NCBI RefSeq assembly: GCF_005405385.1
Contig: NZ_BJDY01000007.1
Location: forward strand, 1 to 64,000
Source: Lactiplantibacillus mudanjiangensis
GTDB lineage: Bacteria; Bacillota; Bacilli; Lactobacillales; Lactobacillaceae
Direction of reading: 5' to 3'
DNA length: 64,000 nucleotides
Below, one piece after another: positions 9,391-55,786 of the stretch. Made by a program: the position numbers and the translations under genes. Within the stretch, counting starts at the first letter, position 1. Each line of letters starts with the position of its first letter. The notes below the pieces were generated by a model. It saw nothing but the letters and a program-made list of their open reading frames with translations. It searched no databases and was not told the DNA's origin.

Positions 9391-9792
9391 CACCTACGTC
9401 AGCCAGTGATTCTGCCGGCTGTGGGGACCGGCTCCAGCCAAAGTGCGGGCTTCCACCTCGCTTTTGAGCCTAGCCAAATCCGCTAGTCTCAAAAGTCGTC
9501 CACATCGTAAAGTCCGGCAAAACCATCCGGACTAACGATGTCTTCACGGCCGGCGCCATCACTGGCTGACTCCGGCTATATCGCGGACACTAATCTAGTA
9601 ATCACTAATATAACCGAGAGTGAGTCCACATTGAGCCCAGCCGTGGGAAGCTCTTAGCGATTTATCGCTTAGAGCTTGGCGCTTTTGAAACACGGGTTTA
9701 GTGGTTCAAAACGACGGGCCAGACCGCCTTTTGGCTGGACCGGTCCGCCCACAGCGTTCCGGCTCAAGGTGGGCGAACGGCAAGGTGGCAAG
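9391..9792 (+). repeat. structured intergenic repeat, copy 1 (full length, modules A and B)
   Basis: About 400 bp between short inverted ends (CACCTACGTCAGCC ... GGCAAGGTGGC). Module A (9398-9570) has outer arms 9398-9423 and 9545-9570 (13 bp, a 3x3 internal loop, 10 bp with one G-U) that enclose three hairpins; the third is 9512-9541 (ACATCGT..AGTCCGG/CCGGACT..ACGATGT). Module B (9624-9774) has outer arms CCACATTGAGCC/GGCTCAAGGTGG and again three hairpins, one of them 9648-9677 (AAGCTCT..AGCGAT/ATCGCT..AGAGCTT). Read backwards, module B has the same order of hairpins and shared sequence (ACCGG-TCCAGCCAAA, CTTTTGA/TCAAAAG) as module A. It lies 3' of the XRE gene, after its terminator. No ORF is supported inside. 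Confidence 0.9.
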
Positions 9793-9850
9793 TCACTCTA
9801 CTTTTAAATGAATACTCGTCACATCAGCGACGCTTGTCCAAAAACAGCCT

Positions 9851-20209: not shown

Positions 20210-20306
20210 ACAACTAAAACTGACTATATATTATGCTGAAGATTGAAAGTTACTTTTAGCAGCAATTACCGATATGGTAAGCATGCTACCATCAAGAATA
20301 GGTTGA

Positions 20307-20711
20307 CTTGCCACCTACCGTTCGCCCACCTCAAGCCGGAACGCTGTGGGCGGACCGGTCCAGCCAAAAAGCGGTCTGGCCCATCGTTTTGAATCGCCAA
20401 ACCCGCGTTTCAAAAGCGCCGATCTCTAAGCAATAAATCGCTAAGAGTTCCCACGGCTGGGCTCAATGTGGACTCACTCTCGGTTATGACCGTGACCACT
20501 AGATCAATTAATATCCCCAAACTAACCGGAGTCAGCCAGTGATGGCGCCGGTCGTGAAAGCATCGTTAGTCCGGAAGATTTTGCCGGACTTTACGATGCG
20601 GACGACTTTTGAGACTAGCGGTTTAGGCTAGGCTTAAAAGCGAGGTGGCAGCCCGAACTTTGGCTGGAACCGGTCCCCACAGCCGGCAGAATCACTGGCT
20701 GACGTAGGTGA
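20307..20711 (-). repeat. structured intergenic repeat, copy 2 (full length)
   Basis: Second full copy, inverted relative to copy 1: on the minus strand module A comes first (outer arm ends GTCAGCCAGTGAT near 20703), then module B to about 20320. Its module A third hairpin (20570-20599) closes with GCATCGT/ACGATGC where copy 1 has ACATCGT/ACGATGT, a compensated A-T to G-C change. It lies between the ribH stop (20780) and the terminator at 20179-20209, in A-to-B sense relative to ribH. Confidence 0.9.
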
Positions 20712-20779
20712 CTAATTCAGAGCACTAATTAGTACTGATATGACTGCTATCGTCATATTTAACTTTCATCCTTTAATGA

Positions 20780-24120: not shown

Positions 24121-24215
24121 ATGAGTTGCTAAATCGATTTCATCCGTGGCATGTCTAAATAAACCATTAACGGTTTACCAAAAAGACTGCTAGTTCGATC
24201 AAACAGCAATTATTT

Positions 24216-24347
24216 TCTTCTCCCATCCTGACTTTACAGTCGGTTCCAGACTCTCACTGGATCAGCCACGCGCACGTGGGTCACGGACTTCAACGCCATT
24301 GGCATTGTCACCGTCGGTCGGGAATTACACCCTGCCCCGAAGAAATC
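24216..24347 (-). promoter_or_regulatory. FMN riboswitch (RFN element)
   Basis: On the minus strand the classic RFN blocks are all present in order: TCTTCGGGGCAGGGTG, AATTCCCGACCG, GGTGAC, AGTCCGTGACCC, GAGAGTCTGGAACCGAC and AAAGTCAGGATGGGAGAAG. It binds FMN and shuts down the rib operon through the downstream terminator. Confidence 0.98.
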
Positions 24348-24368
24348 GTATTTAGTTTTCAAAGCATA

Positions 24369-26883: not shown

Positions 26884-27096
26884 GTCTCCTACCTCCGATT
26901 ATCATGAAGTTCTTGGTTTTTTATCCTGGGAAGTTTACGAACCAGGCAGTCGGACTGCCGACTAATGTGATAAATGCACCTCTAAGTATAAGGGAAACCG
27001 CGACAAATTAACATCATCTATGAAAAATATGTCAATTTCATTGGCAATCATTGTATAATTAGAACCAGCTAATTTCGTAGGAGCGTGTTTAAATTT

Positions 27097-29601: not shown

Positions 29602-29856
29602 TCACCTACGTCAGCCGGCGCCATCACTGGCTGACTCCGGTTAGATTGTTTAATCAAATCTTGTAATCAGCTTTATAACCGAGAGTGCCTTCACATTGAG
29701 CCCAGCCGTGAGAGCCTCTAAGCAATAAATTGCTAAGAGGCTGGCGCTTTTGAAACACGGATTTTATGGTTCAAAACGACGGTTCAGACCGTTTTTTGGC
29801 TGAACCGGTTCGCCCACAGCGTTCCGACTCAATGTGGGCGAACAGCAGGTGGCAAG
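29602..29856 (+). repeat. structured intergenic repeat, copy 3 (module A gutted, module B intact)
   Basis: Starts with CACCTACGTCAGCC like copy 1 but passes at once into GGCGCCATCACTGGCTGAC, so the interior of module A (its three hairpins and half of the outer stem) is deleted at a GCC/GGC junction. Module B is complete. Its hairpin at 29713-29742 reads AGCCTCT..AGCAAT/ATTGCT..AGAGGCT, with three compensated base-pair changes against copy 1. It lies between the oleate hydratase stop and the terminator at 29918-29959, in A-to-B sense. Confidence 0.88.
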
Positions 29857-55461: not shown

Positions 55462-55509
55462 ATTATTTCTAAAGATTGAAAATTATTTTTTAGCAATAAT
55501 CGTTGATTC

Positions 55510-55786
55510 ACCACCTGCCGTTCGCCCACATTGAGCCGGAACGCTGTGGGCGGACTCACTCTCGGCTATGATAACGATTACTAAATCAAATTGTGTTCAC
55601 AAACTAACCGGAGTCAACCAGTGATGGCATCGGCCGTGAAAACATCGTTAATCCGGGTGTTTTTCCCGGGTTTACGATGTGGACGACTTTTAAGACTAAC
55701 GATTTGGGCTAGGCTTAAAAGCGAGGTGGAAGCCCGCTCTTTGGCTGGAGCCGGTCCCACAGCCGGCAGAATCACTGGCTGACGGA
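55510..55786 (-). repeat. structured intergenic repeat, copy 4 (module A intact, module B gutted)
   Basis: Inverted like copy 2. On the minus strand module A comes first (outer arm near 55783, GTCAGCCAGTGAT) with all three hairpins, then module B reduced to its outer arms (GCCCACATTGAGCC ... CTGTGGGC joined to GAGTGAG-like flank); its three hairpins are gone. It lies between the SDR stop (55809) and the terminator at 55406-55461, in A-to-B sense relative to the SDR operon. Confidence 0.87.

Follow-up and report, generated by a model that had tools for sequence, protein, structure and literature searches.

Sequence comparison identifies a repeat family of Lactiplantibacillus mudanjiangensis, of which four copies lie in the 64,000-nucleotide stretch analyzed here (the window), as a MITE with ends matching an IS4-family insertion sequence (IS), and comparative alignments show that the module carried twice, head to head, in its interior has a multi-branched fold maintained by compensatory change. 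The explanation that we favor, for which the case is about evenly balanced, has two layers: the module would be a chromosomal REP/BIME-like element of folded DNA, amplified in this genome by the IS4-type MITE. The initial annotation of the window, which described an unrecognized four-copy family of cloverleaf-like intergenic repeats, is partly supported as a whole.

The sequences, read directly at all four places, bear out the presence of shared, structured repeats (Table 1), and 9391–9800 folds about 10 SD below 100 dinucleotide shuffles, as DNA and as RNA, with none of the 100 shuffles equaling it. Each unit holds two homologous modules, A and B, of about 150–180 bp each. The 26-position outer stem proposed for A in copy 1 (9398–9423 with 9545–9570) is Watson-Crick paired at 22 of 26 positions, and the outer arms proposed for B are found starting at 9626 and 9761. 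The further proposal that the unit consists of two diverged copies of one element placed head to head also holds: a covariance model (R1) of 24 sequences, some of them second modules of relatives' paired loci and none of them a B module of this genome, recovers A and B three times each in the window, with B on the strand opposite A, and detects B in copies 1–3 at E values of 3.1e-12 to 8.7e-14. For module A of copy 1, the R1 match covers 9414–9554 (+, E 6.5e-33, this copy itself being in the model). Copy 3 and copy 4 have both undergone internal deletion.

Rfam 15 gives no gathering-level match over the repeats, and around copy 1 only weak, chance-level matches, none credible, at E ≤ 5, in keeping with the earlier description of an unrecognized intergenic family of inverted homologous modules. 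The statement that no transposase fits is not supported, since the ends match those of an IS4-family IS. No ORF of ≥80 aa lies wholly in the copies.

Table 1. Coordinates of the repeat copies in the window and of the partner IS elements in related genomes
Feature	Location	Strand	Basis and remarks
Copy 1, A-spacer-B unit	9391–9792	+	Sequence; BLAST; no TIR recognized (≤6 mismatches)
Copy 1 module A (outer stem, GGAC/GTCC stem, hairpins H1–H3)	9398–9570	+	R1 match and fold
Copy 1 central spacer, variable, separating A and B	9571–9623		Identity comparison
Copy 1 module B, inverted relative to A	9624–9769	-	R1 match 9638–9757 (-), E 8.7e-14
Copy 2, complete 541-bp MITE, both TIRs	20236–20776	-	2 mismatches per end
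Copy 2 module B	20340–20463	+	R1, E 1e-12
Copy 2 module A	20547–20687	-	R1, E 1.4e-31
Copy 3, A cut down to fused outer arms (about 29603–29635), B intact	29602–29856	+	Sequence; R1 match; no TIR recognized
Copy 3 module B	29701–29821	-	R1, E 3.1e-12
Copy 4 left TIR	55469–55485	+	2 mismatches
Copy 4, A intact, B reduced by internal deletion	55510–55786	-	Sequence; R1
Copy 4 module A	55629–55767	-	R1, E 4.4e-29
IS4-family element	L296, 536–2094		440-aa frame, first part in another frame; Pfam DDE transposase
IS4-family element	L297, 535–2099		451-aa frame; Pfam DDE transposase; NCBIfam NF049925, IS4 family, E 2.1e-144

Two of the original claims require revision. The family is far larger than four copies: BLAST with copy 1 returns 40 full-length matches at ≥88% identity (query counted) and 6 fragments from the host genome (3,289,607 bases in 13 contigs), a lower bound since only 40 of 223 candidates were scored, and R1 finds at least 150 modules (150 of 150 scored matches). 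The elements also reach further than the ends first assigned to them, as in copy 2, where the complete MITE encloses 20307–20711, and in copy 4, whose left TIR lies outside the unit. Past those ends, many copies in this genome have common flanks that close in an inverted repeat, and the unit forms the interior of a non-autonomous transposon, at most ~545 bp long, that has TIRs CTAAAGGTTGAAAGTTA of ~17 bp and target duplications of 7–9 bp. At least one end is recognizable in 24 of 30 copies and both ends in 11. The 16-base core of the TIR occurs at 158 places in the genome at ≤2 mismatches, versus 6 for the reversed control. Among 30 two-ended elements, which span 193–547 bp, the flanking 8-mers agree at 4.73 of 8 positions versus 2.94 when shuffled (maximum of 2000 shuffles, 4.03), and 12 match at ≥7 of 8 flank bases. 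In a 193-bp deletion form (L206, 612–804), the outer arms are fused and the 8-bp target duplication is exact. Internal deletions joining A and B at common motifs, such as CCCACAG, were seen in L206, L207, L209 and L212.

The 16-base core is present in 11 of 17 other genomes of the genus, and a related core, in a scan that had no shuffled control, in 23 of 111 named loci, several of which are Levilactobacillus modules. In two related genomes, among the matches listed, cores bracket an IS of ~1.56 kb whose ends, one mismatch being allowed, are nearly the same as those of the MITE (Table 1); no modules were found inside these two IS stretches. Together, the TIRs, the target duplications and the IS with near-identical ends place the unit in the interior of a MITE. 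In G008 and G018, the terminal repeat of the IS marks the end of several contigs, which suggests that the element is multi-copy in these genomes. Sequences similar to the IS occur in 35 plasmid records, and in one of these the match covers at least 80% of the query; one plasmid match falls under a feature named IS5 family transposase. The 16-base terminal repeat also has exact matches, which may be due to chance, in 23 viral contigs (L273–L295).

The module is spread much more widely. BLAST finds matches in 8 of 60 genomes, this one included, and the loci of the 7 others hold single or paired modules whose stem sequences are divergent yet still pair. Within the genus, R1 matches 19 of 21 genomes, own included; seven of the 19 have only 11–20 matches, with best E values of 1e-6 to 1e-12, and G001 and G002 have none. 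Across the family Lactobacillaceae, the module is present in at least 75 of 301 genomes (own included) and at least 11 of 40 genera at E ≤ 1e-6, lower bounds since ten candidates were scored per genome under stricter filters. A pattern scan returned at least 111 named stretches, 85 from Lactobacillaceae (Levilactobacillus including L. brevis, Lactiplantibacillus, Companilactobacillus, Secundilactobacillus and others labeled Lactobacillus sp.) and 26 from other bacteria, and matched one viral contig. R1 finds 186 modules in the 85 Lactobacillaceae stretches, and neither the other 26 nor the viral contig, in which it finds nothing, contains a credible match (best E 0.097).

Both L. fabifermentans (G007) and L. 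brevis CD0817 contain at least 150 modules (in each, 150 of 150 scored R1 matches). Since the module is abundant in L. fabifermentans, which has no TIRs at ≤1 mismatch, it is not tied to this transposon. About half of the modules are single rather than paired. In L. brevis CD0817, among the 150 matches listed, 15 of 82 strong modules face a partner no more than 520 bp away and none has a tail-to-tail or same-strand partner within this distance; pairing of the facing kind is not universal, as loci L159 and L162 contain same-strand neighbors. L. brevis loci L093, L152, L168 and L177 carry shorter modules (~115 nt, 54–57 bits with R1), which may be of the B type, their A partner having weakened or disappeared.

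BLAST of copy 1 gave no match in plasmid or phage collections, nor did a second query against the phage collection; of three further module queries against plasmids, two had no match and the third had one short, weak match, a set of results that comes from BLAST with few queries, a type of search that diverged stems escape. This sole plasmid match is a 43-bp segment of a Limosilactobacillus reuteri plasmid (NZ_CP030091.1, 14963–15005) that is 86% identical to a Companilactobacillus module.

Alignments of modules from this and related genomes show that the arms stay paired through compensation. For a set of 25 modules that spans several species and includes both window modules, RNAalifold predicts 39 pairs, 34 of which have at least one double change. 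In a larger alignment (A3) of the best 150 of the 186 R1 modules, which come from 76 loci and include 146 distinct modules, 87.7% of cells are paired, 48 of 51 pairs have double changes, with a covariation score of 0.511, versus 0.06–0.11 for slid structures. Motifs in unpaired loops are conserved across genera. A candidate pseudoknot pairing GACCG with the H1 loop was rejected; the loop partner is CGGGC in some modules, with no compensation.

In which strand, and in which molecule, does the module fold? A helix selected as RNA should tolerate G-U far above A-C. In the A orientation, variable pairs of the modules have GU:AC of 120:291, versus 102:7 for Lactobacillaceae RNase P RNA and 11:1 for the FMN riboswitch, and changes counted on trees give to-GU:to-AC of 68:173, versus 71:9 and 8:1, respectively, with the qualifications that A3 is fitted to the model and that neither cells nor events are fully independent. 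A per-column sign test on the GU/AC counts gives 24 versus 9 (p 0.014), and the same test on events in well-paired columns gives 17 versus 7 (p 0.064). The GU share is 0.39–0.53 when structures are predicted anew for subsamples of 30 modules, and 0.29–0.33 on a MAFFT alignment (A2). As the corresponding mutations at unpaired module sites lean the opposite way (127 versus 261), mutation bias is not the explanation for this skew. T-G is common, in the A orientation, at two A3 pairs (columns 7 with 176 and 113 with 164), contrary to the general trend. The depletion of GU relative to AC rules against an RNA in the A orientation and points instead to a fold of the complementary strand or of DNA; a functional RNA read from this strand is, judged by these counts, unlikely.

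The main rival explanation, which we consider possible but not probable, is that the strand complementary to the A orientation gives rise to a structured RNA, with the copies being either functional or relics of a mobile RNA gene. Read on this strand, the changes favor the wobble type, 173:68 overall and 60:6 in H2, for a wobble fraction of 0.72 overall and 0.91 in H2, values near those of RNA that speak against the DNA reading; H1 is at 0.82 and the outer stem plus H3 at 0.57. The complementary strand also has the lower RNA folding energy in 124 of 146 modules, just as the sense strand folds better in the controls (30 of 30 RNase P RNAs and 29 of 31 FMN riboswitches). With event counts and folds of both strands leaning toward the complement, a plainly DNA-level reading drawn from the symmetric-looking pairing had to be softened. 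However, the wobble fraction of 0.72 lies below the 0.89 of RNase P (Fisher p 0.0015), and it is 0.59 in L. fabifermentans (0.52 in well-paired columns), versus 0.74 and 0.76 in two other groups. Moreover, single modules are not placed for transcription of this strand, on which the downstream gene lies in 31 of 66 cases, and inspection by eye of the flanks of 33 L. fabifermentans modules revealed no conserved promoter. We lean toward folded DNA over a complementary-strand RNA on three grounds: the bias falls short of that in the RNA controls, the strand is not placed for transcription and the MITE is found in either orientation.

Two explanations that assign no role to the fold appear improbable. 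One is that functionless stems are kept through template-switch correction of quasi-palindromes, which would fit with changes on both sides that preserve pairing and with the small number of wobble intermediates. Under such a mechanism, however, neither the conservation of unpaired loop motifs across genera nor the strand asymmetry would be expected, and the ratio of double to single (GU or AC) changes, 564:241, is not above the 299:80 of RNase P. The other, to which we assign a similarly low probability, is an ordinary IS4-derived MITE whose interior is passive ballast. Although TIRs, target duplications and a partner IS are all present, the modules of 11 two-ended copies in this genome are 90–92% identical, whereas in these copies identity is 69% for the spacer and 68–77% for subterminal DNA, which makes the modules the constrained part; over 30 copies, mean pairwise identity of the spacer is 67%, versus 90–92% in the modules. 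The absence of modules from the IS also argues against ballast, and their occurrence in L. fabifermentans with none of these TIRs contradicts it.

Placement among genes was assessed using the higher-scoring part of the 186 R1 modules, of which 106 had enough flank. With a home-made finder and no shuffled control, a co-directional intrinsic terminator was detected just upstream of 19 of 32 L. fabifermentans modules and 22 of 74 others, whereas an opposite-strand terminator at the same place was detected for 2 of 32 and 5 of 74, respectively; outside L. fabifermentans, most modules have no detected upstream terminator. Downstream, co-directional terminators follow 10 of 32 and 10 of 74 modules, and the reverse-equivalent arrangement, a downstream terminator on the opposite strand, is found for 10 of 32 and 4 of 74. 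The comparison of 41 with 14 (n = 106) favors the A orientation (p 0.0004). Single modules also share the direction of the upstream gene in 43 of 66 cases, a bias that counts against our main explanation. These orientations, together with the 20 of 106 modules followed by a co-directional terminator, could be taken to support a 3′-UTR RNA element transcribed with the upstream gene, but this is the least probable explanation of all, as this is the very strand on which GU falls short of AC and as, in the 41 cases of an upstream co-directional terminator, the module lies behind it.

MITE copies in this genome lie in 14 convergent, 13 tandem and 3 divergent gaps, versus 6, 23 and 9 for other gaps at the same loci, and those in tandem gaps have no strand preference (5 versus 8 of 13). 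In L. brevis CD0817, assuming an origin near coordinate 1, modules have no bias in replication arm or strand. Four near-species comparisons of single modules yielded no clean empty site, only a partly deleted module or unclean replacements. At orthologous places, four module comparisons, too few for rates, revealed shared residence, which fits stable and mobile elements alike. One orthologous module (L104, 6112–6249, and L106, 4145–4282) is nearly unchanged where the surrounding alignment is 91% identical.

How might the two layers of the favored REP/BIME-like explanation work? In the first, an IS4-family DDE transposase presumably moved the MITE in trans. In the second, the cargo of the MITE is a head-to-head pair of a module that is spread through the family Lactobacillaceae. 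This module would act as DNA, either in the form of a cruciform or as one folded strand, of which the complement of the A orientation is the likeliest. A putative factor recognizing the conserved unpaired motifs may have dispersed the module, partly beside intrinsic terminators, with the IS4 MITE later boosting its number in this genome. As for a mobilizing protein, the presence of a Y1 transposase does not track the module: PF01797 (Y1) is found in 12 of 22 module-rich genomes versus 8 of 20 picked as module-poor, and this genome has only a stop-containing match. Mobilization by a RAYT/Y1 protein was therefore rejected. Less probable than the favored explanation is the broader proposal of a new class of chromosomal DNA element, a multi-branched structure of ~180 nt that would work as one folded strand (the complement of A) and spread, often as head-to-head pairs and partly behind intrinsic terminators, via putative machinery, to reach at least 150 modules per genome in several Lactobacillaceae species.

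In its TIRs, its 7–9-bp target duplications, ends in common with an IS4-family element and lack of a whole ORF of ≥80 aa in the window copies, the repeat resembles IS4-family MITEs; it differs in carrying a conserved, covarying module pair that is also present outside the MITE. REP, BIME and REPIN sequences are intergenic, high-copy and foldable, often form inverted pairs near gene 3′ ends, and are associated with RAYT (Y1) transposases, and a REP unit is a short single hairpin of ~20–40 nt with a GTAG-like tetranucleotide. The module shares their intergenic location, high copy number, foldability, frequent inverted pairing and proximity to gene 3′ ends, but at 150–180 bp it has several helices and no link to Y1 transposases. 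It is also reminiscent of the attC sites of integrons, in which the bottom strand folds, in that its inverted repeat is imperfect and one folded strand may be the active form; unlike attC, it has several hairpins and is frequently paired head to head. Like ERIC, BOX and bcr1, it is interspersed, intergenic and foldable; unlike these, it extends across 11 genera and shows compensatory change. Should it prove to be a folded-DNA element, the module would enlarge the small group of systems that exploit single-strand structure, such as attC, REP and IS200-like elements.

Group IIC introns are described in PMC4424553 as having target sites behind intrinsic terminators, and the home-made finder used here, run with no shuffled control, would place part of the modules in such positions; the module is far shorter and has no Rfam intron match. 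In the literature, mostly at the level of titles and abstracts and including PMC2267715, PMC3271238 and PMC4424553, we found no description of the module family. A survey of structured repeats in 40 genomes lists, in the portion of its text available, one lactobacillus, L. johnsonii (PMC2267715).

A strongly covarying module with no Rfam match thus occurs at least 150 times in each of several lactobacilli, including L. brevis. The comparison of wobbles with mismatches offers a simple, sequence-only route to whether interspersed repeats fold as RNA or DNA, and on which strand. Finally, we note that the minus strand of the window has gathering-level Rfam matches to a T-box leader (2639–2835), an FMN riboswitch (24211–24348) and a PreQ1 riboswitch (26907–26951).
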